DNA of 64,000 nucleotides. Origin: Phlebopus portentosus (lineage: Eukaryota > Basidiomycota > Agaricomycetes > Boletales > Boletinellaceae). Both the position numbers and the translations under genes were made by a program. The stretch covers positions 186,001 through 250,000 of the forward strand of contig JAYXKI010000006.1 in assembly GCA_037892935.1 (NCBI GenBank), given 5' to 3'. Positions within the stretch are counted from its first letter, which is position 1; the number at the start of each line of letters is the position of its first letter. The notes beneath the pieces are model-generated. The model had not been told where the DNA came from, did not search any database, and was given only the letters and a program-made list of their open reading frames with translations. Positions 6,202 to 63,973 of the stretch are shown piece by piece.

Positions 6202-6408
6202 CTTATATAGACTTTGGGCACGGGAAAGGTCTACCCTAATGGGAAGTCACATGACAAGGAATGGGATGATTAGTGAGCGTGATAGAACATTGTGGAATGT
6301 TCCGGCAAAAGGATGAATAAGCGCATAAGAAAAATAAAAGAAAAGAAAAAGAATATTAAAATAAATGATGACGTCAGAAAAGAAAAGGAAAATGTTCGAG
6401 TCCTTACA
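5951..6408 (-). repeat. 5' LTR of element A
   Basis: This is a 458-bp LTR reading TGTAAGG...CCTAACA on the minus strand. A TATA box (CTTATATA on the plus strand) is at 6202-6209. The last half contains two imperfect copies of a CTACTTACCTTCACTGCGAC-like motif, at 6083-6109 and 6140-6166 (reverse strand). The flank next to the LTR start is TCGG (ATCGG if five bases) in element orientation. Confidence 0.88.
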
Positions 6409-8437
6409 CCGATCTGGCCGCCAGAGCCGTGACTTTCCAGCGTTTTGCTTCCCGATCACGCGCCTCCCGAGCTGCCTTACGCTTTGCAGCTACAGCCCTG
6501 CCCTTCGTGGCTAGACTACAGCCCTTCACCTGCTTCAAGCACGGAGCGCAGGTCCTCTGTGGAAGACCCACGCAATCACGGCCATGCTTCTGGCACTGGT
6601 CGCACGGAACCTGATGACAAATGCGCCCATCGCTCAATCGTTCATCACCATTGTCGTTGTCGTTGTCGTCGTCGTCATTATCATTGTTGTCACCACCAGA
6701 ACCACCACCATTAGCCAGAATCCTAGAAGGACCAGCCTCAGGTTGAGAAGATGCTCGTCGTGCCAGAGAAACGCATCTCGCTTGCATTTCGACAGTTTCG
6801 CGCAGAACAGCAGCAGTACCGCTATTGTTGTTGTTGTTGTTGCTGTTGTTGTTGTTGCTCGCAGTATTGAGAGCCTGAATCTCTTCAAGGCTTGCGTCTG
6901 CCTCAAACGGCTCATTCGCCTCCATTCCCACATCACCGATATCCATTCCTCCATCGCCTGGACTCATGACAACGGAGTCTTCTCCCCGATGACCAGGAGG
7001 GGGACTCTCAGGACTTTCCTGAATCGCAGGAGTCTCCTCGTTCGAGTCCACCACTTGTCGAACACCACGAACACGGCGAGTCCCTGCATCCAGCCATCAT
7101 CGCATGTTGGCCTCAATTTCGGCAGCCATCCGGGAGATTTCGGCGCATTGAGCAGTGCGTTCTTCTTCTTCTCGTCTTTCACTCTTGCGAAGCTCAATCT
7201 CGAGCATTGTAGGTTCGAGTGAGGTTAAGGGTGTAGAATGGCTAGCCCCTTCCAAATGTTCTGCTCCGGTTTCGAGCGTTTCGACCAGTTCCGCGACCTC
7301 TCCATCCTCAATTGTTTCGCCAGTTTCGACCTGGAGAGGAGCGGAATCAACCTCCATTGGACTATCGACATCCTGAGGCAGCATTTGATGTTGCTGCTGT
7401 TGTTGTTGTTGCGGAGGAAATTGTTCAGGCAACATTGGTTGTTGCTGCTGTTGTTGTTGCAGTTGAGGAAGAGGTTGAGAAGGTTTAGACAGCACTTGTT
7501 GGGATCGTTGTTGTTGCTGTTGTTGTTGTTACGTTTCGGATTCCTGAGCACGGACGAGTTGACAGAGCTGATGACGAAGGATGGAATAGCCATAGTATTC
7601 CCAGAGGAGCCGGACCATTCTCAATTTCACCCTGTCGATGCGAAGGATGTGCCCTGCACGAAGGTGTTGTTGCTCGATATCCTCCCAATATTCGAATGCT
7701 TGCTGTAGGAAGGATTAGATGGAGATGATAGATAAGAAGAAGTACCTACATGACTCCGGACAGCTTCGTCTCGCGTGTAGTCCGTGTTGCCGGTGAACCT
7801 CGCCATTTGGTGGAACTTGGAGCTCTCCACTCTCACGTTCTCGAGAGCCTTTTCGATGTCAGGGCGTGGTTTCGGGAACATTGGAGGGAACAATTCGCCC
7901 AAGAAGAACCCACGAGTTGAATCGAACGAGGCAGGATGGAATGGAACCCTGCGTCTGCGGAAGAAAGCTCGTCGTTTGGTCTCCATCCTGGCATACAATT
8001 CCCGTCAATCGTAGTACAGCGTCCGTAGGAGAGCGTCCATGTCGCAGTAGTTGGAGTATGCCGTCTCCGACTAGACTTCTTTCGTTCCTTTGGGACGGAC
8101 TTGCTCCAACGCTTCCTTCTGTGCCTGTCGAATTTCGTTAACAAAAATTCTTGATTAGAGTGCGCGGTTTACGCACCGTGGTTGCCTTCCACCCATCCAT
8201 CAAAGATTCCATCACCAGATTCGTCAACCACCGAACCGTCATTGAACCTGTAGGCGCGATCCATTCGACCGGTTTTGTCTTATCTGGCAGAATTACCGTC
8301 GTGACGCTATGGTCTAGTTCATCCATTGCCGACCTGGCCAAGGCGACGTCTGCCTCGAATTTCACAACCGCTGCCTTCCAGTCGTCATCGGAGTTGATGG
8401 GTCCCAAGAGCGCGACGACTTCTTCGGAAGTGAACAT
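6409..8437 (-). pseudogene. Antisense Zn2Cys6 gene of B1, truncated by element A
   Basis: This is a three-exon gene on the strand opposite to B1. Exon 1 is 8437-8177 (ATG, product starts MFTSEEVVALLGP), intron 8176-8125, exon 2 8124-7750, intron 7749-7703, exon 3 from 7702 until element A cuts it at 6408. Both introns are GT-AG and in phase 0. Exon 3 encodes a Gln-rich stretch, a Glu-rich predicted coiled coil, Asn and Asp runs, and a cysteine cluster CX2CX6CX7CX2CX6C at about 6604-6518, followed by a Lys/Arg-rich helix. It is broken by TAA near 7533 (CAA in other copies) and TGA near 7103 (CGA in other copies). The function is unknown; the cluster fits fungal Gal4-type DNA-binding domains. 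Confidence 0.8.
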
Positions 8438-8565
8438 GTTGGAGAATGAAGAAGAGATGACAGCGGAAGAAAATTTGGACGCGACGCATTATGCTTCGAA
8501 ACTCCCACGCGTCGGATTGAGATGGGAGTGACCGCGGATGGTCACTATTTCATGAACCTGGGAGA

Positions 8566-35862: not shown

Positions 35863-38800
35863 CATCAGGAAAACAGTCCAAATTATCCACTGCTACCCAT
35901 AGCTACTCATAGCTACTCACTACTATAGGCTGCTATATAGCAGCCTATAGTAGGTTAGTAGTCCATAGTGATTTATCGTGACCCCCCTACTATAGAGAGG
36001 GCTGTAACAGTGTATAGATGCTATAGTTAACATTTATTCATAGTACTAGAAAGAGATGAATAGTGCATAATATATAGCAACCTGTAGCAATTGATACAGA
36101 TTTATAGTGCTACTAGCGCATAGTGCATAGTGCCTTATAGTAATTAGTATGAGTTTATAGCTGATACTAGATGCTTATAGTTGATAGTTCTTATAGGTGA
36201 TATATTGTCATAGCATATTAAAGATATAGATAGTCATATATTATCATAGATAGCACTTATTAGAGACCACGAGCATATCGGAGAACATATTTAATTTTTA
36301 TTAAATTTAAATATATCAATAGTATACTACTTACAGACCCATACAAGCATGTAACTAATTACATGTACAGCTTACTACAGAATCTATGTGAGCTAGGCAT
36401 ACACTCATATACACCTATACTAATATAGACCAATGCTACTTGTCGGAGATAATAAATAGTCAAAAGTGTTAACACTAGACACTGTTGATAGGACAAAAGA
36501 ACTTCCACTGGCTTCAAGGCCCAAACTGGTTAACACAAGGTCAGAGTGCACTAGCACCACCCCAGCTAAGTGGCACAGGTTCAGCAGTGCATAGCACACC
36601 TCCAGCTGGCTAGCAAACAGCCACAGTATAATAGGTGCCACCCTGGCTAAGTGCACAGGTTCAGCAGCACTCAACATACTGCCTCTACACCTGGGCTGCC
36701 CACTGCGACAGGGACAGAGGTGTCCAAGAACCACAGACCTCCCAACAGCCAGAACAACAATTAAAAGAAAAGGTAATGAAGTGGCCTGAAGCCATTGCAA
36801 TCTGCAAGATGAGAGATGGTTCAGAATGTGGATGTGTACGCATCCACAATTCGGTGGCTCAACATAAGGAGCCAATTACCTTACAGGTCCATTCAGCACC
36901 AGCCTGGAGACATGCATGAGTGCATTCCATGTCCCACACAGCATGGCCAATGCACTGCGCGAGTTCATACAGTAATCTTGCAGTGCCGTACTTAGGAGGC
37001 CATCGACTTGTGCAGGTACATTGTTGCTGAATTTGCTCAGTCTCAGGAACTGTCACAGAACATGCAGGGCATCACACATGATGGCGTCGGTTGGCTTGTC
37101 ACAAAGCTGCCACTGCCAAAAAACTTTCAGGTCATGGTGACGGCACTGGCCCTGTCATCCGAGGAACTGGGTGCATATATGCACAATATCCCATACTTTG
37201 TCACACTTGTCGGACCTAATCCTCTTAAATCAGTGGACCTCGCTGGGTAAGGCTTGCCCTTTGACCATAATCTAATAGTGATGCTGACTTCTTTCTTCAA
37301 CAGGTACCTATGTGGTGAGAATCCCGACTACGATCCTGCACCTATCATCTCGGCCTTCAACCTGATCGTTATGGCGCATGCCGCTCACACTGGTTTTCGC
37401 GCACTCACCAAGAATGCATACTATTTCGACCCCAATGCGGATATGGGCGTGCCTACTCACCCTAGCATCAAGGTCGTCAATAGCTTCTTTGCTTCTGTCC
37501 ATCCAGTTCACAAGTCCCTCATGGTCAGCATGAATACGTGCATGAGCGCATTCCACGTCCCGTGAAGCATAGCCGATGCGCTGCATGAGTTCATGTAGCA
37601 ATCTTGCAGTGCCGTACCTCAGAAATTCTTTAGTAATATGAGGGTAGTTACAAGTTACCTCGGGTATGATAGGCGCAACACCGTGAAGGCGATTGAACCT
37701 GGTATGGCAAGACGGACAAAGATCTAGAGTGAAAAATTCGGCAATATTACAGTGGAGGAATATTTCCAGAAAAGTAAGTCATCCATGGATCGAATTGGAA
37801 TCGTGCTGACTATTGCACAGAGTTCCACATCACACTCCGCTATGCAGATGACCTGCCCATAGTGAATGTCGGGAAAGAGGGCAAGGATGTTTTCATACCA
37901 GCCGAGCTGTGCAAGATTATACCAGGGACCCTTTTCGCAGGTGAGCTGAAGTCTGGGGAGAGCGCAGCCCTGTGTGCTGCAAACAACAAGACGCCAGCTG
38001 GTTACGCACAGACAATCACTATCAAGGGTCTCCGTCTCCTAGGCTTTGAGGAGGGCACACCTCCGATTGCCAGCTTCAGAATCAAAATCTCGACAAATAT
38101 GGCTGTTGTCGTAACTCGCATTCTCCCCACACCATTGGTGATTTATCCTTCGGGCTGTGCACAAATTGTCAATGGATCTTGGATGGCGCATGGCATTCAG
38201 TTCGTGAGGCTTGCAGAGCTTAAACGCCTTGCAGTTGTGGTCTTAAAGGATGAGAATATAGAAGAGTCCAACAGCTTGCTCGAGGTGCAGGTGCGTGAGG
38301 TGGTGAAGGCTCTGATCAGAAAATGTTATGCACGTAGAATGAATGTCAACTCAGACTTCATCATGCAGGTCCTGCAGCTCCACCATCCAAGTTGAGAGGA
38401 TCCATACCGCGATGAGGATGTGGACAAAGTATCAAGGTTGTTCGAATCGCTGCCAGGCAGGCCCTAAATAGTTCTTGCCCTCATGTCAAACAAAAATAAG
38501 CATATCTATGCGGGACTCCACCGGTACTTTGACATTGGCCAGGACTTCCAGTCCATGATTGGCCTCATCAAGAACATGCTCGACAAGGAGGGTCATGATC
38601 AGTATCTGCCAAATCTTGCACTCGAGGTTAACACAAAGCTCAGTGGGGTCAACCATTGGCTAGAGCCTGCTTCTCTGAAATGGCTGGCAAACACGATGGT
38701 GGTCAGGTTTGATGTGATTAAGCTGGGTGGGAATGCGGTCAAGGGCGCGCCTAGTATTGCAGTGGTCGTGGTGTCGTGCAACGTGAACTTCACCCCAGTG

Positions 38801-39010: not shown

Positions 39011-39354
39011 CAGATAAGGACGTGTTCATGCCAGCAGAGCTGTGCAAGATTGTCCCAAGAACCTTTTCGCCAGTGACCTCAAGTCTAGGGAGAGCACGGC
39101 CCTATATGCTGCAAACAACAAGACGCTAACTGGCCATGCACTGAAAATCACCATGAAGGACTTCTGTCTTCTAGGCTTTGAGGAGGGCGCACTTCCAATG
39201 GCCAGCTTCGCTATCAAAATTTTGGCAAGTATGGCTATTGTCATGACTTGTGTTCCACCTGCACCATCGGTGGTTTATCCTTCAGGCTGCACACAAGTTG
39301 TCAATAGATCTTGAACAACGCATGACATCCAGTTCGCAAAGCCTTCAGAGCTTA
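39010..39354 (+). pseudogene. Third Argonaute fragment, 5' part (split by element D)
   Basis: It covers the end of PAZ (MPAELCKIVP) through linker 2 and VVYPSGCTQVVNRS to the start of MID (ELKR-equivalent). The sequence resumes at 50848 after element D with LAVVVLKDG. It is broken by several frameshifts. Confidence 0.75.
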
Positions 39355-39359
39355 AACGT
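39355..39359. other. Target-site duplication of element D (left)
   Basis: AACGT here recurs at 50843-50847. If the LTR is taken as TG...CA, the duplication is the four bases ACGT. Joining the two flanks restores the Argonaute sequence seen in the other copies. Confidence 0.85.
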
Positions 39360-40701
39360 TGTAAGAAGCATCGACACGCTAGGTCCGAGATCGCGCACGT
39401 GACACGTGTTCCGCGGTGATCCGCATCGTAACAGCGGAACTCGGTGCGGATCGATTCGATTCGAAGTGGAACGGACTACTGTAGCCTCTCGCACTCGACC
39501 GCTGCGTAGGAAGAACCTTCGGACGCTCGAGCCACCCAGTCGAAAACTTACAAAGGCTGACTTAGCTAGCTCGTCTTACTAAACCCAGGCACGAGAGGTA
39601 AATTGAAGGATCCGCAATCGGCCCCCGACACCTCCCAAGTTTCGACCCGACGCGACGCACTCCGGCTTTTCCCCTTTTTGAGTCCCATATGCGTTCATAT
39701 TTTGTTTTGTTCCTTATGATTCTTATGCTCATTATTCCGTGTGCGCTCACATTTCGTATTATGCTCTATGGTCATTATCTCGCCACCTTCCAGATATGCT
39801 CACCTCGTACTTTGTTCCCGTGTGTTCCCTTATGATTTTCACTTCCGATTTCCTTTCGTTATGCTCCCTGACGCTCCGATGGCTCAGGTTCGGACAAAGT
39901 TATAAATAGGCGAGCAACTTGTAGTAGGAGCCCAGTTTTAGCCCGGAGAGTTTTAGCAGAAAACAGTTTAGCTCGGGCTTGAACCCACTTTAGCTACAGT
40001 CGAGACCAATTCGACTCTTCCTGTACTCTCCTCGACTCTATCTCCCACAAATACACGATAGTTCTGTCTCATACGCCTCGAGTCTCCTGCTCTGCAGTCG
40101 TACCCGAGCCCAGTGTGATCAGTTCAACCCGTGTTGAAGTCGGAGACCCTCATCTCTCCTCCCTACGCCCCTACGCGAGGTCTCACTTGAGTCCCTTGCG
40201 TATCGCTTCGTTCCGCGTCGTATCGCTCCGTTTCGCTTCGTAACCCACCGAAACCCGTCGTAACTCGTCGTAACCCGTTATATCGTGTCGGATCCTCGAA
40301 AGGATCACCTTCGAATCGTCAGCGCTTAGGGGAAGTCCTTCTCTAAGCTTCGTCTCATCGTCTTCCGCCTTCAGGGTTCGAATCCATCGAGGGATTACCT
40401 GTGAGGACATCGATTACCTTCGCACCGCCACCGCCGATCCCCCCTTGCTTCGACTTCTCCCGCCTTGCTTCTTCGCCTATCTCCTTTAATCCAATCCCCC
40501 CCTCGCATACATCCAGCCGCCTTCAATCCCATTTCTCCTCCATCCCTTCCGGAACTGCTCCGGAACCCAGATCGACGCATCAGCCCTTCTCTAGTTTTCC
40601 CCCCAAAGATCACCCTTCTCTTTCCCACTCGTTTTAATCTTACCGAACAGCCCCCAAGAACTGTGACACTCCTCAGCTATCAGACAGTGCAAAGGAGTTT
40701 C
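39360..40701 (+). repeat. 5' LTR of element D
   Basis: It reads TGTAAGAAGC...GGAGTTTC(A). The TATA box (TATAAATA) is at 39901-39908. No ATG occurs between the TATA box and the LTR end. Confidence 0.95.
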
Positions 40702-41243
40702 AAGTGGAGCCCCCGGCGAGGGGGGAAATTCACTGTTCGTCCAAAACGAGTAACCAAACTCCAGGTAGTACTCGGACTACCCGAAGCCAATCAGCCCGTA
40801 TCCCCGTAGTTCACCAAGCCTTACCCCAAGTCACACCTCGGACACCTAGGCAGAGGGCAAGCGCTAGAAGCACCACAGCATCGTCGCTAAGTTCTTCAGT
40901 AATTCAACCTTCACCTCTGACCGAGTCCAGTACCCTACCATCGTTCGAGCCGTCGGCCGAATCGTCTCCTTTTAGTTTCCAAGAAACCGATCTACCTACC
41001 GAATTCTCCGAGCAAGAATCCTCGTCGCCTGAGGATATCACTGTTCGACTCGATTACCCAGACCCCGCTAGGCTCAGACAGCCTCAAACCTCCAATCAAG
41101 CGATCCAAGTCGATCCGCTTGTGCAACAGTCGCAACCAAGCGGATTAACTCTCGCTCACCACCTCCAAGGACTGGGAAGTAACCTGCAGATCCTTAACCA
41201 ACTTCAGACCAATTATCAGCAGTTGCAGCGTATATCGAACCAG
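39909..41243 (+). promoter_or_regulatory. ATG-free leader of element D
   Basis: From the TATA box to the first ATG at 41244 there is no ATG in any frame over 1335 bases, where about 20 would be expected by chance. The gag frame is open from 40638, so about 200 codons precede the first ATG. A GTGAGG at 40401 could be a splice donor. Confidence 0.8.
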
Positions 41244-42884
41244 ATGGCTGCGGTTAGACCACCTCTTCGAGGTGACAAGAGAGCACCAGTATTCGACGGT
41301 TCCGATCCGAAGGAACTGTTCCGCTTCTTCGACGACGTGGATGCGATCGCAATAGATTCCAACTGGGATGCGTCGACTACCATCAGACGTGGGTACCTGT
41401 ACTATGCGAAGACTGACGTTGCAGAAGTATGGGAGACCCTCCCCGAAGTTTCTGCCGCCCCTGCGAGTGTCGGAGATTTCAAAACGGCCGTCAAGAAGCT
41501 TTATCCAAGTTTGGCAGACGGCAAGAGATACTCTAGGGGCGAATTGGAGCAGTTCATCGCCGAATGGGCCGAAAAAGGTATTCACACCAGAGATGAATTC
41601 GGCACTTATCATCGCGAGTTCCTACGCAGAGCCAGGTATCTAGTTGCCAGCAACAAACTTACCGAGAACGACTCGAAATTCGCGTTTCTTCGAGGCATTT
41701 CTGGCCAGACTAGGAAGGATGTCCTGCAAAGGCTCGAAATCAAGGACCCGGACCACGAGAGGGGCGACCCCTACGACATCGAGAAAGTAGCAAACACAGC
41801 TATGTACATTCTTTCGGGATCCGCAGTCGATCAGATCGGATCCGACCCGATGAGCGGCGGAACGAGCGCAACGATGAGCGCGTCGTCGGGAGGACATGGA
41901 ATGACCGTCAAGAAGGAAGAAACGGACTTGAGTAAAGTTTGGGAAACGCTGAAGGGTTTTCAGGTAACACTGGAATCGCTCACTAGAGGCCAGGGCCCTC
42001 GAATCGCAACAGGTCCGCAACCGGCCCCATTGGCTCGCACGCCCGGATGTGCGTTCTGCAGCGATCCCGGCCACTTTATAAGGTCGTGCCCGAAGGTACT
42101 CGAGTATATCCAGGCCGGAAAGTGTCTACGTGACTCGAACGGACGAGTAGTCATGCCAAACGGAGCCTTCGTATCAAGTAGGGTTTCGGGCCGGAACCTG
42201 ATGGAGCGAATTGACAACTTGCTAAAGCCGAACCCGTCACATCCAGTCAACATCATCGAAGTCGCCGAGCACCCGGGAACCCCGGCCGAGCCGATAGCAT
42301 CAGCTATGCTCCAGGAAATCGGCGAGGATCAGACAGAAGAGACCGATTACGAAGTAGAACGTTTAGAAATCTTGCTCAACGAGGCAAAGAAGAAAGCGGC
42401 GACTGGTAAAAGGCAGAAGTTCGACGGAGTAGTCATTCCGACAAAAGTGGGACCGCCGGGAAGAGGGGCTTCGAAGGCGCAGCAGTCGCCACCCCCTATT
42501 CCTAAGTCCCCGGCGGTTTCACGTTCGTCACCGCAGCGGGATGATATTAGAAAACCCTCGAACCCCCAACCCCAATACCGCTACGTAGTCCCCGTTGAAG
42601 ATTCTAACGCTGTCTCTAACGTGCTCACTCGGACGCTCGACACGAGCATTACGCTTAGCCAAAGGGAACTGTTATCGATCGCCCCCGAACTACGAAAGCA
42701 ACTAAAGGAACTCACTACCGCAAAGAGATATAACGCTGCCGATGTGAATCTCGTCGAATCGCCGAGTTACGCCATGCAACTGTGCGGAACCGCATCGCAA
42801 CAACCTGAGGACTCGATTCTGTCCATCGGAACGTCGGGAGTGACCGCGGAAGCAACTCTCCCCTTCGTACGATTACAGCCGTAG
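40704..42884 (+). CDS. Gag of element D
   Basis: This is the capsid/nucleocapsid protein. The open frame begins after a stop at 40635-40637. The coordinates start at a GTG inside the primer site, but the first ATG is residue 181 (41244, MAAVRPPLRGDKRAPVF). Residues 1-180 are Ser/Thr/Pro/Gln-rich, and the TRSQSAR-PV motif there is conserved in B2 and B4, so this part is probably translated. The capsid-like region covers ~185-370 and a CCHC knuckle starts at Cys449 (CAFCSDPGHFIRSC). The C-terminal ~100 residues (KELTTAKRYNAADV) are also conserved. The frame ends at TAG, 42882-42884, and overlaps the protease frame, which lies at -1. Confidence 0.88.
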   Translation: MEPPARGEIHCSSKTSNQTPGSTRTTRSQSARIPVVHQALPQVTPRTPRQRASARSTTASSLSSSVIQPSPLTESSTLPSFEPSAESSPFSFQETDLPTEFSEQESSSPEDITVRLDYPDPARLRQPQTSNQAIQVDPLVQQSQPSGLTLAHHLQGLGSNLQILNQLQTNYQQLQRISNQMAAVRPPLRGDKRAPVFDGSDPKELFRFFDDVDAIAIDSNWDASTTIRRGYLYYAKTDVAEVWETLPEVSAAPASVGDFKTAVKKLYPSLADGKRYSRGELEQFIAEWAEKGIHTRDEFGTYHREFLRRARYLVASNKLTENDSKFAFLRGISGQTRKDVLQRLEIKDPDHERGDPYDIEKVANTAMYILSGSAVDQIGSDPMSGGTSATMSASSGGHGMTVKKEETDLSKVWETLKGFQVTLESLTRGQGPRIATGPQPAPLARTPGCAFCSDPGHFIRSCPKVLEYIQAGKCLRDSNGRVVMPNGAFVSSRVSGRNLMERIDNLLKPNPSHPVNIIEVAEHPGTPAEPIASAMLQEIGEDQTEETDYEVERLEILLNEAKKKAATGKRQKFDGVVIPTKVGPPGRGASKAQQSPPPIPKSPAVSRSSPQRDDIRKPSNPQPQYRYVVPVEDSNAVSNVLTRTLDTSITLSQRELLSIAPELRKQLKELTTAKRYNAADVNLVESPSYAMQLCGTASQQPEDSILSIGTSGVTAEATLPFVRLQP
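40705..40722 (+). promoter_or_regulatory. Primer-binding site of element D
   Basis: TGGAGCCCCCGGCGAGGG starts three bases after the LTR. A tRNA with a 3' end CCCTCGCCGGGGGCTCCA would pair. That implies U at the discriminator position, which is typical of tRNA-Cys; the tRNA identity is an inference. Confidence 0.7.
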
Positions 42885-47447: not shown

Positions 47448-49368
47448 TTACTCTTCCTCCTCACCCCTTACCACCCTTCCTAGCGCACTGGTCTCGGCCA
47501 GCATCTCCTCCGCTAGGTTGCGCAGTTGATCCGCAGCGCGGAACAACACGCGCGCGCGCCTCTCCAAGGCCGCCATCCGGAAATGGACGGCGCTCTCGTC
47601 CGTCCCGGCGACCAACTCCTCGATGTCACTCACCTCGAGGACAGGCGCAACCGGCATCCTCAGCACCTGCGCCGTTGCGCGCTGACGAGCTTCGCGCGTC
47701 TCGCGTTCCACCTGCTCGTTCCGCAGGCGACGCGCAGCCCTCCCGTGCGTAGCCAGCTCGCATCGCCGCCTGGCCTTCGTGCGGCAGTAATCACAGGCCT
47801 GCCCAGGGAAACCCTCACAGACCCGGCCTGTCCTCGCGCACCTCTCACACCCCTCATCATGCACGACCCAGCCACCAGCAGACGAATTGCTGCTGCTGCT
47901 GCTACTGCTGCTGCCGTCCCCGCCATCGCCTTGGCTTCCCTCATCCTCTTCCATTCGTTCTGCACTCGGAGACTCGCTCGCAGCCGGAGGATTGCTGTTG
48001 CTGCTGTTGCTCTCGCTGACAGCACCGTCCGGAAGAAAGAGGGGCGCTTCGTCAAAAGCCCCAAAGTCGTCATCTCCAGCCGGACCCCCAGAAGAGAAAC
48101 CGTTGGCAGCAGAAGGAATGTTGCTGCTGCTGTTGTTGCAGTTCCCCTCTACCGACTCCTCGTCGCTCGAATAATCGACAATCCGAGGCCGCTTCGTGGG
48201 CCTCTCATCTCTCTCGCGATCCGAAGACGGCGACGGAACCCTGACCGCGCTTGCCATCTTCTCCAGCTCGCTCAAGTACGAAACTCGGTCCGCACGATCC
48301 TCCAGCTCGCTGATGACGGACTCCCGCTCCACCTGACTCAAGTCTTGACGACCCAGCAGCGTCCTGAGGGCAGACTCGGTCAATTCGGATATACCCGACG
48401 AAAAGGGGCCCGATCCGCCGAGATGCGCGTCGGAACGCAGCGCAACGAGGGCGTCTGCGGCTTTGACCGAGCACGGGCAGCACTTCTCCTCATACGCAGT
48501 CCAGCACCGCAGGGCCTCGTGGACGTGACTCTTCAGCGGCGCTGAGAGGAGGATTCCCCGGATCTCCGCCCAAGCGAGCCACCCGAATTCGGTCCAGACG
48601 TCGTCAATCTCCGTGCCGGGAGGACGACGACCGACCCAAAACATCCGCCATAGCTAGAAGTTCAACAGTTAGCAAGATTTGAAGAAGAAGCGAGAATGAG
48701 CACTCACCTGGTCCAGATCGATCTTCATGACCGTGTTCTCCAGCTCGTCCTTCCTTTCGTCGAAATGGCCAACCAGTGGCCGTAGCAGATCGCGGTGACG
48801 ACCGATCGCCCCTTCTAGACCGGTCAAACCCGCGCGCCATTGCTGAACGTAGACTTCGGTGTCCGGCTTCGAACGCTTTTCGTCCTCGAGGTACGAAGCC
48901 TTGAGCGCATCGAGCTGGTCGCAGTTGATGTTGAGGGTTGCGCAACGATCCGCAAGCGCAACCACGCTTTCCGCCCAGAAACGCGCGGCATACGGCGGCC
49001 ACATCAAATCGATGGGCACCCACTCGGGCCGAAGGTCCTCGAGTCTCTTTCTCGCAGTCTATGAAGTTCAGGAAGTCGGAACGGAACGAAGAGAATAGAT
49101 GAAGACAGAAAAGAAAGCGCACCTGGATCTCACGCATTTCCTCCGCCCTCTCAACGGACTGCGCAACGGTCATCCTCACGAACCGTCTCTGATCCACGTC
49201 CTCGTGCAAACGCTCGATGACCTGGACCTGGTTTCCGACACCGTAAAGCCACGTATCGCTGAACACGAAGCCCTCCGCTGAGACAGGGATCTCGTCGAAC
49301 AGCGGCTGTTGTTGCTGCTGTTGCGGTTGTTGCTGTTGTCGCTGTTGTTGTTGCTGTTGATAGGACAT
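47448..49368 (-). CDS. Antisense three-exon gene of element D: 600-aa Zn2Cys6-cluster protein
   Basis: The exons are 49368-49123, 49058-48708 and 48653-47448, with GT-AG introns of 64 and 54 bp, both phase 0; the spliced frame is 601 codons with stop. The start is the ATG beginning MSYQQQQQ. In order: poly-Gln (residues 4-22), two helical exons with a Trp-rich patch (PEWVPIDLMWPPYAARFW), a basic likely nuclear signal (RPTKRPRIVD, ~350), Ser/Asp/Glu-rich low complexity, then cysteines at 468, 471, 478, 486, 489 and 497 (CX2CX6CX7CX2CX7C), then an Arg-rich helix and a predicted coiled coil. The spacing fits the fungal Gal4-type binuclear zinc cluster, but the cluster is near the C-terminus, where Gal4-type proteins usually have it N-terminal. 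It may regulate the element or its host; this is inference. Confidence 0.85.
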
Positions 49369-49502
49369 GACGGAGAGAAGAGAGGATAGATGAACGGAAC
49401 GCGTCGCGAACCGCGTTTTACGCGTCAAGAATCTAGAGACGCCGAGTCTAACCCTATTGGGAGTGTGACTGCGGACAGTCACGATTTCAAGAAACCGGGA
49501 GA
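49369..49502. promoter_or_regulatory. Upstream region of the antisense gene and polypurine tract of D
   Basis: Only 134 bp separate the antisense ATG from the 3' LTR, so its promoter probably lies partly in the LTR. AAACCGGGAGA at 49492-49502 adjoins the LTR and is the likely purine primer tract. A TGACTGCGGACAGTCA-type inverted repeat at 49467-49482 (GTGACTGCGGACAGTCAC) recurs next to the LTRs of B copies. Confidence 0.5.
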
Positions 49503-50842
49503 TGTAAGAAGCATCGACACGCTAGGTCCGAGATCGCGCACGTGACACGTGTTCCGCGGTGATCCGCATCGTAACAGCGGAACTCGGTGCGGATCGATTC
49601 GATTCGAAGTGGAACGGACTACTGTAGCCTCTCGCACTCGACCGCTGCGTAGGAAGAACCTTCGGACGCTCGAGCCACCCAGTCGAAAACTTACAAAGGC
49701 TGACTTAGCTAGCTCGTCTTACTAAACCCAGGCACGAGAGGTAAATTGAAGGATCCGCAATCGGCCCCCGACACCTCCCAAGTTTCGACCCGACGCGACG
49801 CACTCCGGCTTTTCCCCTTTTTGAGTCCCATATGCGTTCATATTTTGTTTTGTTCCTTATGATTCTTATGCTCATTATTCCGTGTGCGCTCACATTTCGT
49901 ATTATGCTCTATGGTCATTATCTCGCCACCTTCCAGATATGCTCACCTCGTACTTTGTTCCCGTGTGTTCCCTTATGATTTTCACTTCCGATTTCCTTTC
50001 GTTATGCTCCCTGACGCTCCGATGGCTCAGGTTCGGACAAAGTTATAAATAGGCGAGCAACTTGTAGTAGGAGCCCAGTTTTAGCCCGGAGAGTTTTAGC
50101 AGAAAACAGTTTAGCTCGGGCTTGAACCCACTTTAGCTACAGTCGAGACCAATTCGACTCTTCCTGTACTCTCCTCGACTCTATCTCCCACAAATACACG
50201 ATATCTGTCTCATACGCCTCGAGTCTCCTGCTCTGCAGTCGTACCCGAGCCCAGTGTGATCAGTTCAACCCGTGTTGAAGTCGGAGACCCTCATCTCTCC
50301 TCCCTACGCCCCTACGCGAGGTCTCACTTGAGTCCCTTGCGTATCGCTTCGTTCCGCGTCGTATCGCTCCGTTTCGCTTCGTAACCCACCGAAACCCGTC
50401 GTAACTCGTCGTAACCCGTTATATCGTGTCGGATCCTCGAAAGGATCACCTTCGAATCGTCAGCGCTTAGGGGAAGTCCTTCTCTAAGCTTCGTCTCATC
50501 GTCTTCCGCCTTCAGGGTTCGAATCCATCGAGGGATTACCTGTGAGGACATCGATTACCTTCGCACCGCCACCGCCGATCCCCCCTTGCTTCGACTTCTC
50601 CCGCCTTGCTTCTTCGCCTATCTCCTTTAATCCAATCCCCCCCTCGCATACATCCAGCCGCCTTCAATCCCATTTCTCCTCCATCCCTTCCGGAACTGCT
50701 CCGGAACCCAGATCGACGCATCAGCCCTTCTCTAGTTTTCCCCCCAAAGATCACCCTTCTCTTTCCCACTCGTTTTAATCTTACCGAACAGCCCCCAAGA
50801 ACTGTGACACTCCTCAGCTATCAGACAGTGCAAAGGAGTTTC
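49503..50842 (+). repeat. 3' LTR of element D
   Basis: It is identical by eye to the 5' LTR apart from a 2-bp deletion near 50203. The TATA box is at 50044-50051. It is followed by the AACGT target duplication. Confidence 0.95.
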
Positions 50843-50847
50843 AACGT

Positions 50848-53653: not shown

Positions 53654-55931
53654 ATGTTCACTTCCGAAGAAATCATCGCGCTCTTGGGACCCATCAACTC
53701 CGATGACGACTGGAAGGCAGCAGTTGTGAAATTCGAGGCAGACATCACCTTGGCCAGGTCAGCAATGGATGAACTAGACCATGGCATCACGACGGTAATT
53801 CTGCCGGATAAGACAAAACCGGTCGAATGGATCGCGCCTACAGGCTCGATGACGGTATGGTGGTTGACAAATCTGGTGATGGAATCTTTGATGGATGGGT
53901 GGAAGGCAACCACGGTGCGTAAACCACGCACTCTAATCAAGAATTTTTGTTAACGAAATTCGACAGGCACGGAAGGAAGCATTGGAGCAAGTCCGTCCCA
54001 AAGGAACGAAAGAAGTCTGGTCGGAGATGGTGTACTCCAACTACTGCGACACAGACGCTCTCCTACAGACGCTGTACTATGATCGATGGGAATTTTATGC
54101 CAAGATAGAGACCAAATGATGAGCTTTCTTCTGCAGACGCAGGGTTCCATTCCATCCTGCCTCATTCGATTCGACTCATGGGTTCTTCTTAGGCGAATTG
54201 TTCCCTCCAATGTTCCCAAAACCACACCCTGACATCGAAAAGGCTCTCAAGAATGTGAGAATGGAGAGCTTTAAGTTCCAACATATGGCAAGGTTTACTG
54301 GCAACATGGATTACACGTGAGACGAAGCTGTCCGGAGTCACATAGGTACTTCTTCTTGTCTATCAACTCCATCTAATCCTTCCTACAGCAAGCATTTGAA
54401 TATTGGGAGGATATCGAGCAACAACACCTTCGTGCAGGGCACATCCTTCACATCGACAAGGTGAAATTGAGAACAGTCCAGCTCCTCTGGGAATACTATG
54501 GCTATTCCATTCTTTGTCGTCGGCTCTATCAACTCGTTTGTGCTCAGGAATCCAAAACGCAACAACAACAACAGCAGCAACAACGATCCCAACAAGTGCT
54601 GTCTGAACCTTTCTCTCAACTGCAACAATAACAGCAGCAACAACCAATGCTGCCTGAACCATTTCCTCCGCAACAACAACAACAGCAGCAACATCAAATG
54701 CTGCCTCAGGATATCGATAGTCTAATGGAGGTTGATTCCGCTCCTCTTCAGGTCGAAACTGGTGAAATGATTGAGGACGGAGAAGTCATGGAACCGGTTG
54801 AAACACTCGAAACCGGAGCGGAACATTTGGAAGAGGCTAGCCGCTCTACACCCTTAACCTCACTCGAACCTACAATGCTCGAGATTGAGCTTCGCGAGAG
54901 TGAAAGACGAGAAGAAGAAGAATGCGCTGCTCAACGCGCCGAAATCTCCCGGATGGCTGCCGAAATTGAGGCCAACATGCGACGACGACTGGATGCAGGG
55001 ACTCGCTGCATTCGTGGTGTTTGGCAAGTGGTGGACTCGGATGAGGAGACTCCTGCGATTCAGGAAAGTCCTGAGAGTCCTCCTCCTGGTCATTGGGGAG
55101 AAGACTCCATTATCATGAGTCCAGGCGACAGCGGAATGGATATCAGTGATGTGGGAATGGAGGCAAATGAGCCATTTGAGGCAGACGTAAGCCTTGAAGA
55201 GATTCAGGCTCTCAATACTGCAAGCAACAACAACAACAGCAACAACAACAACAACAATAGCGGTACTGCTGCTATTCCACGCGAAACTGTTGGAAACGCA
55301 AGCAAGACGCGTTTCTCTGGCACAACGAGCATCTTCTCAACCTGAGGCTAGTCCTTCTAGGATTCCAGCTAATGGTGGTGGTTCTGGTGGTGACAACAAC
55401 GATAATGACGATGACGATGGTGACAAACGATTGAGTGATGGGCGCGTTCGTCATTGGGTTCTGTGCAACCAGTGCCAGAAGTGTGGCCATGATTGCATGG
55501 GTCTTCCGCAGAGGACCTGTGCTCCATGCTTGAAGCAGGTGAAGGGCTGTAGTCTAGCTATGAAGGGCAGGGCTGTAGCTGCAAAGCATAAGGCAGCTCG
55601 GGAGGTGCACAATCAGAAAGCAAAACACCAGAAAGTCATGGCTCTGGCAGCCAGATCGGTGGGTGGTCGCATTGAGCATGAAGCTCTGCAGCAGGAGGTT
55701 GGGGAATCTGAGCTGCAGTTCGTGCTGGTGCGGATGGATCACTGGGACAAGGTCCTATCCTGGATGCTGAATGAATTCAGCGTCCTCGTTGCGCAGGCAC
55801 ATGCGGATCGTCATCTGCTGCTCGAGTTGGCTGGGGTGAAGACTGGGGAAGGTGAAGACAAGGAAGAGGAAGATAGAGGGAAAGTGGAGAGGGTTCGTCA
55901 GTCGAAGGGGAAAGGTAGGGCTCGGAAATAG
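53654..55931 (+). pseudogene. Antisense Zn2Cys6 gene of B3
   Basis: Exon 1 is 53654-53914 (open; MFTSEEIIALLGP), intron 53915-53966, exon 2 53967-54341, intron 54342-54388, exon 3 54389-55931. Lesions are AAATGATGA in exon 2 (CGA to TGA), loss of the second donor (GTAGGT in B1 and B2 reads ATAGGT), TAA in the Gln run, and a frameshift near 55290 after the Asn run. The cysteine cluster (CNQCQKCGHDC, then CAPCLKQVKGC) and the basic C-terminus are preserved in the last frame, which stays open from about 55194 to the stop. Confidence 0.8.
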
Positions 55932-62470: not shown

Positions 62471-63973
62471 CTATTCCCGAGCCCTACCTTTCCCCTTCGA
62501 CTGACGAACCCTCTTCACTTCCCCTCTATCTTCCTCTTCCTTATCTTTACCTTCCCCCGTCTTCACCCCAGCCAACTCGAGCAGCAGACGACGATCTGCA
62601 TGCGCCTGTGCTACGAGGACGCTGAATTTGTTCAGCATCCGGGACAGGACCTTGTCCCAGTGATCCATTCACGCCAGCACGAACTGCAGCTCAGATTCCC
62701 CGACTTCCCGCTGCAGAGCTTCATGCTCGACGCGACCACCCACCAATCTGGCCACCAGAGCCGTGACTTTCCGGCGTTTTGCTTCCCGATCGTGCGCCTC
62801 CCGAGCTGCCTTACGCTTTGCAGCTACAGCCCTGCCCTTCGTGGCTAGACTACAGCCCTTCACCTGCTTCAAGCATGGAGCGCAGGTCCTCTGCGGAAGA
62901 CCCACGCAATCACGGCCACGCTTCTGGCACTGGTCGCATGGAACCCGATGACGAACGCACCCATTGCTCAATCATTTGTCACCATCGTCGTCGTCGTCGT
63001 CATTATCGTTGTCGTCACCACCAGAACCACCACCATTAGCCGGAATCCTAGAAGGACCAGCCTCAGGTTGAGAAGACGCTCGTTATGCCGGAGAAACGCG
63101 TCTCGCTTGCGTTTCGACAGTTTTGCGTGGAACAGCAGCAATACCACTATTGTTGTTGTTGTTGTTGTTGCTGTTGTTGTTGTTGCTCGCGATATTGAGA
63201 GCCTGAATTTCTTCAAGGCTTGCGTCCGCCTCAAACGGCTCATTCGCCTCCATTCCCACATCACCGATATCCATTCCGCCGTCGCCTGGACTCATGATAA
63301 TGGAGTCTTCTCCCCGATGACCAGGAGGAGGACTCTCAGGACTTTCCTGAATCGCAGAAGTCTCCTCATCCAAGTCCACCACTTGCCAAACACCACGAAT
63401 GCGGCGAGTCCCTGCATCCAGCCGTCGTCGCATGTTGGCCTCAATTTTGGCAGCCATCCGGGAGATTTTGGCGCGTTGAGCAGCGCGTTCTTCTTCTTCT
63501 CGTCTTTCACTCTCGCAAAGCTCAATCTCGAGCATTGTAGGTTCGAGTGAGGTTAAGGGTGTAGAATGGCTAGCCCCTTCCAAACGTTCCGCTCCGGTTT
63601 TGAGCGTTTCGACCGGTTCCGTGACCTCTCCGTCCTCAATCGTTTCACCAGTTTCGACCTGAAGAGGAGCGGAATCAACCTCCATTGGACTATCAACGTC
63701 CTGAGGCAGCATTTGATGTTGCTGCTGCTGTTGTTGTTGCGGTTGAGAGAAAGGTTCAGACAGCACTTGTTGGGATTGTTGTTGTTGCTGTTGTTGTTGT
63801 TGCATTTCGGATTCATGAGCACGAACAAGTTGATAGAGCTGACGATGAAGGATGGAATAGCCGTAGTATTCCCAGAGGAGCTGGACCGTTCTCAATTTCA
63901 CCCTGTCGATGCGAAGGATGTGCCCTGCACGAAGGTGTCGTTGCTCGATATCCTCCCAATATTCAAATGCTTG
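62471..63973 (-). pseudogene. Antisense Zn2Cys6 gene of B4, exon 3
   Basis: Exon 3 starts at 63973 after an intron acceptor (63974-63979) and ends at a stop at 62471; exons 1-2 lie outside the window. It encodes poly-Gln, a Glu-rich coiled coil, an Asn run, an Asp run, the cluster CDQCQKRGRDC ... CAPCLKQVKGC, a basic helix, and a Lys-rich C-terminus. Stops at about 63083 and 62669 (TGA for CGA and CGG) break it. The open part 63083-63901 still spans the acidic and Gln-rich regions. Confidence 0.8.
63716..63805. repeat. CAA/CAG (poly-Gln) microsatellite in the antisense genes
   Basis: This run encodes poly-Gln on the minus strand. Equivalent runs are at about 7390-7535, 11586-11735, 54558-54690 and, in exon 1 of D, 49306-49357. 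Poly-Asn (AAC) runs lie near 6825-6860, 12262-12296, 55222-55260 and 63150-63188. Confidence 0.8.

Follow-up and report, generated by a model that had tools for sequence, protein, structure and literature searches.

A predicted spliced antisense gene for a putative zinc-cluster protein recurs, with a candidate palindromic operator, in two families of Ty3-type retrotransposons in one fungus

An antisense accessory ORF that lies between pol and the 3' LTR of an LTR retrotransposon is known as an aORF-3R, a name given by Vicient and Casacuberta. For one fungal gene of this kind, brtn, the source is said to be Zhao et al. (2011). In the accessible parts of four papers, brtn is an antisense gene of Boty-like elements in Botrytis cinerea (PMC8365987, PMC7264820, PMC4227169, PMC5987419), and the excerpted text of one of them counts it among the antisense genes between pol and the 3' LTR (PMC7264820). 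An initial sequence-only reading of the locus described here had named antisense extra ORFs in this position as established for some plant Ty3/Gypsy lineages (Tat group), and the accessible text of two papers agrees (PMC7264820, PMC11963269); according to the same excerpts, the Grande protein is nuclear and TRP28 is predicted to bind DNA (PMC7264820, PMC11963269). The functions of antisense accessory genes in LTR elements are called unknown in the available portion of PMC7264820, and the extra ORFs of rotifer elements are, as far as the excerpt of PMC5408684 goes, different kinds of ORF. The sequence-only reading also knew of no established fungal case with a Zn2Cys6 product. The open-access literature searched, which lacks most subscription journals, likewise gave us no zinc-cluster version of such a gene in an LTR element of a fungus, but fungal antisense accessory genes as such are already known from brtn. 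Hence, the kind of gene is not new, and the zinc-cluster version with a palindrome that we describe is a variant of it.

The window, i.e. the whole stretch of 64,000 nucleotides analyzed (C6:186001-250000, where C denotes a contig), is recorded under Phlebopus portentosus, and the genome searched comprises 38.4 Mb in 23 contigs. The window contains an LTR retrotransposon, element D (Table 1), whose LTRs are 99.85% identical over 1344 alignment columns and which is flanked by a 4-bp ACGT duplication read from the sequence (39356-39359 on the left and 50844-50847 on the right). D is a young element and, because of the order of its pol domains, of Ty3 type. It has LTRs, gag and then RT, RNase H and integrase, the arrangement by which Ty3/Gypsy elements are recognized; the RNase H and the integrase zinc-binding domain of its pol both scored above their Pfam cut-offs, and the RT slightly below its own (26.9 bits, cut-off 29.6). 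No chromodomain matched the D pol at E<=1. After the 5' LTR, from 40705 onward, there is a primer-site-like sequence, TGGAGCCCCCGGCGAGG; at three near matches to the complement of this site, ARAGORN (run with the bacterial code) found no tRNA. Immediately to the left of D there is an Argonaute-like frame (ArgoL2, 37862-38395), which is accompanied by a 79% repeat (37927-38226 and 39059-39358). The reading frames surrounding the ArgoL2 piece are disrupted, as would be seen if an Argonaute gene had decayed or been duplicated.

Table 1. Features of element D, in coordinates of the window
Feature	Position	Strand	Basis or remark
5' LTR	39360..40702	+	TG..CA ends
gag-like ORF, 726 aa from GTG	40704..42884	+	DUF4100 above cut-off; CCHC knuckle below cut-off
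pol, 1146 aa	43432..46872	+	RT, RNase H, integrase zinc-binding domain, Ty3 order
Antisense gene, exon 3, 401 codons + stop	47448..48653	-	S/N-rich acidic stretch, six-cysteine cluster, helices
C-terminal 145 aa: cysteine cluster, then long helices	47451..47885	-	AlphaFold2 mean pLDDT 83.4, pTM 0.39
Antisense gene, intron 2, GT-AG, phase 0, 54 nt	48654..48707	-	copies compared
Antisense gene, exon 2	48708..49058	-	spliced reading
Antisense gene, intron 1, GT-AG, phase 0, 64 nt	49059..49122	-	copies compared
Antisense gene, exon 1, polyQ N terminus	49123..49368	-	spliced reading
52-nt block: palindrome, purine-rich stretch (PPT), LTR edge	49458..49509		85% identical between D and family 2, E 7e-9
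18-bp palindrome, candidate operator, antisense strand GTGACTGTCCGCAGTCAC	49465..49482		97 nt upstream of the antisense ATG
3' LTR	49503..50843	+	LTR-LTR alignment

Between pol and its 3' LTR, D carries a gene on the minus strand with the ATG at 49368-49366 and the stop at 47450-47448. The sequence-only reading had proposed this gene, with two phase-0 GT-AG introns and a product of 600 amino acids, and its coordinates proved exact. Our search of the genome identified at least 19 copies that match the gene over its whole length or almost so, as well as one that matches from base 185 on (40 of 52 candidates were scored). When we compared 20 D copies (L001-L008 and L042-L053, L001 being the window's own), GT-AG was kept at both introns in every one and the full frame was intact in 12, while five were frame-shifted, two had one stop, and the start of L048 was not judged. 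The same reading had said that it would fall if the frame were a host gene captured once and absent from other D-like elements. The gene recurs at no fewer than 20 near-full D copies and in a second family of the same genome, so a one-off capture is not what we found. Judged by these sequences, it is a recurrent accessory gene with predicted splice sites rather than a lone frame.

The second family (family 2) came from a search with pol, which in this family is 76-78% identical to that of D in the first half and 73-75% in the second. Exon 3 of the D gene gave 61 distant genome matches at 24-33% identity (best E 6e-12), all of which overlap family-2 gene matches; the other 43 exon-3 matches are D-type pieces with 54-100% identity, part of which were read in context. 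In the three family-2 copies read (C1, C4, and C9), the gene lies antisense just past pol. For the copies on C9 and C1, the predicted splicing gives 724 and 730 amino acids; their introns measure 52 and 47 nt, are all in phase 0, and match those of D in place and phase. In the third copy, exon 1 and intron 1 agree. The D and family-2 antisense proteins are only about 25% identical and have the stretch ARK.LE..RP, after intron 1, in common. Given the much higher identity of pol, the antisense gene either diverges at a far higher rate or has been exchanged. With family-2 exon 3 as a query we obtained at least 95 genome matches (84 of 118 candidates scored), and among the 95 matches listed at least 20 cover the whole query without a stop. 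The cysteine motif is the same in all 15 distant copies inspected (12 fetched, plus those on C1, C4, and C9).

Further pieces of family-2 antisense genes are present in the window at 6404-7096, 55191-55931, and 62669-62971. The D-type pieces with 54-69% identity, located at C4:298591, C10:1593908, C18:970814, C11:1506068, and C18:832040, may by their divergence belong to a third, older branch. Both families occur in dense clusters (C6:75-502 kb, C8:1.43-1.72 Mb, C4:2.42-2.46 Mb, C12:220-266 kb, and C14:361-479 kb); these could be centromeres or silent regions of another kind.

In a search of about 5.8 billion proteins, relatives of the antisense protein came only from Sanghuangporus (S. sanghuang, S. 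weigelae, S. baumii, and S. vaninii), all of them annotated as hypothetical; the search needs shared 5-residue words and for the most part scored only those candidates with the highest number of them, and distant fungi could be missed. The closeness of these proteins to the D product points to Sanghuangporus for the window as well. The S. sanghuang protein P0001 (577 aa) runs unbroken across the two predicted junctions, and a piece of 23 residues from within exon 1 is absent from it. A sequence search of the PDB with the antisense product gave no match. A TFIIA match of the relative P0003 was dismissed, as it lay below the cut-off and on low-complexity sequence, and a DUF7283 match stayed below its cut-off.

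We next consider selection on the frame. Naive dN/dS among D copies was 0.35 in the gene frame versus 0.93 and 1.06 in the shifted frames, and in a six-frame comparison of exon 3 the wobble-matched opposite frame was also low (0.43 and 0.46). CpG transitions account for 351 of the 538 differences in ten D copies, a pattern that biases the naive ratio so that it overstates constraint and that points to CpG methylation of older copies. We compared N/S with a CpG-aware neutral simulation, counting each change once and running 2000 simulations. Relative to neutral, N/S was 0.80 for 19 D copies (7 of 2000 simulations as low), 0.82 when L051 was omitted (79 of 2000), 0.64 for family-2 exon 3, and 0.60 for pol (0 of 2000 for each of the latter two). 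The CpG-aware values pooled over copies were 0.66 for D, 0.53 for family 2, and 0.45 for pol. Among the older D copies, the four that are intact gave 0.70, a value that 4 of 500 simulations reached or undercut. Stops were not depleted in D (7 versus 6.3 expected) or pol (16 versus 15.7 expected) and were fewer in family 2 (4 versus 8.3 expected, 98 of 2000 as low). Corrected for CpG, family D shows weak constraint at the level of sequence, and better evidence comes from the preservation of frame, introns, and cysteines across the families.

The product had originally been read as carrying a Gal4-type Zn2Cys6 cluster. The cysteine spacing on which this was based, CX2CX6CX7CX2CX7C, is borne out at residues 468, 471, 478, 486, 489, and 497. 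The six cysteines align in 11 of the 12 antisense proteins compared across families (L050 is without the third), with a spacing of 2-6-7-2-7 in D and 2-6-7-2-6 in family 2, and both spacings fall within the Zn2Cys6 consensus CX2CX6CX5-12CX2CX6-8C. The pattern thus stands, but the native sequence fails the Pfam profile Zn_clus (PF00172, cut-off 21 bits): the whole 600-residue D product gave no match at E<=10, four whole relatives gave none at E<=1, and native D fragments reached 8.8 (50-aa cut) to 9.3 bits. In a native D fragment it was to the second half of the profile that the first cysteine triplet aligned, suggesting that the order of the triplets is swapped. Exchanging the triplets raised the score from 9.3 to 21.4 bits in D and from 13.7 to 15.6 bits in family 2, and took S. 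baumii and S. vaninii from no match to 14.9 and 12.5 bits, respectively; D alone among these four proteins passes the cut-off, by 0.4 bits. Two of 20 cysteine-fixed shuffles (ten of swapped D and ten of swapped family 2) matched Zn_clus, at 12.6 and 13.0 bits. Swapped family 2 and S. baumii exceed every shuffle, and swapped S. vaninii is below the best one. The native family-2 fragment spans both halves of the profile and at its 13.7 bits is also above all shuffles; as family 2 is nearly as good native as swapped, the swap stands out for D-type proteins only. On these profile scores, an order-swapped cluster is likely in D-type proteins.

AlphaFold2 modeled the full-length D product poorly (mean pLDDT 41), so that a fold can be assigned to only a minor part of it. 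In the model of the C-terminal part (Table 1), the cysteine blocks have a mean pLDDT of 84-94 and there is a helix at each CX2C. The sole PDB match found by Foldseek at E<=10 was Pho7 on DNA, a weak match (E 9.3, prob 0.12) that serves as a pointer only; we take Pho7 to be a Zn2Cys6 protein. A viral structure library yielded 25 matches (best E 1.8), none of them convincing. Residues 352-356 of the D product, TKRPR, presumably resemble a nuclear signal, which adds little.

With low-complexity repeats and weaker pieces up to E 1 set aside, the DNA similarity past pol between D and one family-2 copy is confined to the block with the palindrome (Table 1), 244 nt at the pol end (78%), and two parts of the LTR, namely an internal piece of 23 nt (91%, E 5e-4) and the terminal 54 nt (74%, E 0.006). 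The palindrome pattern GTGACNGTCCGCNGTCAC occurs at 87 sites in the 38.4 Mb, 63 of them exact and 24 with one mismatch, while the reversed control pattern has no site in the same sequence at up to one mismatch. An antisense-gene match follows on the same strand within 2.5 kb at 84 of the 87 sites (three are without one), and the gene is accordingly found with most copies rather than with one or a few, as expected of an aORF-3R. All 58 family-2 palindromes lie 825-827 nt before the exon-3 match, and 22 of the 26 D palindromes lie 95-98 nt before the gene match. Among the exact sites, 17 have T..A arms, and each of these is at a D gene; of the 46 that remain, 41 have C..G arms and 5 are mixed, and not one coincides with any of the 23 D positions checked. 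The difference between the families in the palindrome arms is symmetric, and the palindrome is kept. Because both arm positions are CpG, deamination on two strands is a simpler source of this difference than selection for a symmetric change. Allowing up to three mismatches, the window has palindrome-like sites at 8528, 10576, and 52549 besides D's own, which go with the further family-2 gene pieces, and the LTRs of D have none. Two ACGCGT words stand between the palindrome and the ATG in both families (window 49370-49450; family-2 leader, L066), and we take them to resemble the MluI cell-cycle box.

The reading that we prefer, tentatively and at somewhat below even probability, is that D encodes its own nuclear Zn2Cys6-like regulator, which would use a private operator to control the antisense promoter and the adjoining LTR. 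The antisense protein would enter the nucleus, a step proposed by analogy, and its six cysteines would fold as a Zn2Cys6-like cluster, in D probably with the halves swapped. It would dimerize via the long C-terminal helices, and the dimer would bind the palindrome, which lies between the ATG of the antisense gene and the 3' LTR, and from there control both the promoter of that gene and the chromatin at the neighboring LTR. The most likely outcome would be that young copies are kept active against CpG-directed silencing by the host and that the protein limits its own dose. Since the CpG decay suggests that the host marks the copies, an anti-silencing role like that of VANC appears reasonable as an analogy. 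We are doubtful about a private switch, in which a spliced antisense gene for an order-swapped Zn2Cys6 protein would act with a family-specific palindromic operator, the protein (about 25% identity) and the operator (symmetric base change) co-diverging while pol stays at 73-78%, and by which each family would control only itself and escape silencing, as a fungal counterpart of VANC or HBZ.

The location of the palindrome outside the LTR body counts against a regulator, and it could be used in reverse transcription. This is the main rival: the palindrome would be a hairpin of the sense-genome RNA or a primer-site element by the PPT, needed for packaging or for priming of the plus strand, and would have no relation to the antisense protein, whose site of action would be elsewhere. 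Its 7-bp arms and 4-nt loop could fold as RNA, each element has one site, and the conserved 52-nt block in which the palindrome lies also contains the purine stretch and the edge of the LTR. The near-fixed spacing between palindrome and gene in both families speaks for a link to the gene, although a site kept near the LTR would show the same spacing, and on balance we regard this rival as unlikely but worth serious attention. A role of the protein as a nucleic-acid chaperone or tether, which would accompany the pre-integration complex and steer where it inserts, would fit the D pol without a detected chromodomain (E<=1) and the clustering of the palindromes, whose median nearest neighbor is at 23 kb versus a random mean of 97 kb (0 of 1000 as low, for the sites outside C2, C7, and C12, which carry 14 of the 87). 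However, clustering could arise by selection against insertions elsewhere, and a particle protein would not require an antisense gene, and we consider this role improbable. Antisense RNA is discussed as a retroelement regulator in the excerpted text of PMC7264820, and the antisense transcript itself could act, as double-stranded RNA against the element, with the protein incidental; yet open frames, intron phases, and cysteines are kept across families at about 25% protein identity and N/S in family 2 is below neutral, which makes this explanation very unlikely. We give next to no weight to a recently captured host gene or a chance open frame, in favor of which nothing was found, as all 61 distant exon-3 matches overlap family-2 gene matches and the gene is present in two families and four species. 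A single or recent host capture is contradicted by the recurrence in D copies and the second family, and a chance frame was dismissed in view of the intact copies, the kept splice sites, and the second-family homologue.

With a conserved cysteine cluster, a single conserved candidate site, and many young copies in one fungus, the function of the antisense gene is directly testable. If the preferred reading, a self-encoded regulator, is true, a fungal retroelement brings its own sequence-specific regulator, and the two sister families are a natural test of the co-divergence of protein and operator.

Overall, D resembles several described systems in part. As excerpted, brtn of the Boty elements is likewise an additional antisense gene in a fungal gypsy-type element, but one of an ascomycete, for which the available text mentions neither a zinc cluster nor introns; the likeness drawn here is one of description. 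Plant Grande gene23, Retand TRP28, and RIRE2, as described in the accessible text, share with D the position and orientation of the gene and a long region between pol and the 3' LTR, whereas the D product differs from these plant ORFs by its six-cysteine cluster and two introns. The 600-residue product had no Pfam match to TRP28 (PF04195) at E<=10, in a search whose HMMER filters drop most weak matches. Gal4-type Zn2Cys6 proteins have a similar cysteine spacing, a helix per CX2C, and rear helices that could pair; however, native D fails the Pfam cut-off, its triplets seem swapped, and its cluster is near the C terminus. In its possible role, the D protein resembles the anti-silencing protein VANC of the Arabidopsis VANDAL transposons, which, according to the excerpt of PMC5735166, is encoded by the element, acts on specific sequences of its own kind, and coevolves with its targets. 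The targets in Arabidopsis are often tandem repeats, as far as that excerpt describes them, whereas D has one palindrome per element. VANC provides a functional analogy for the D protein rather than a family to which it belongs.
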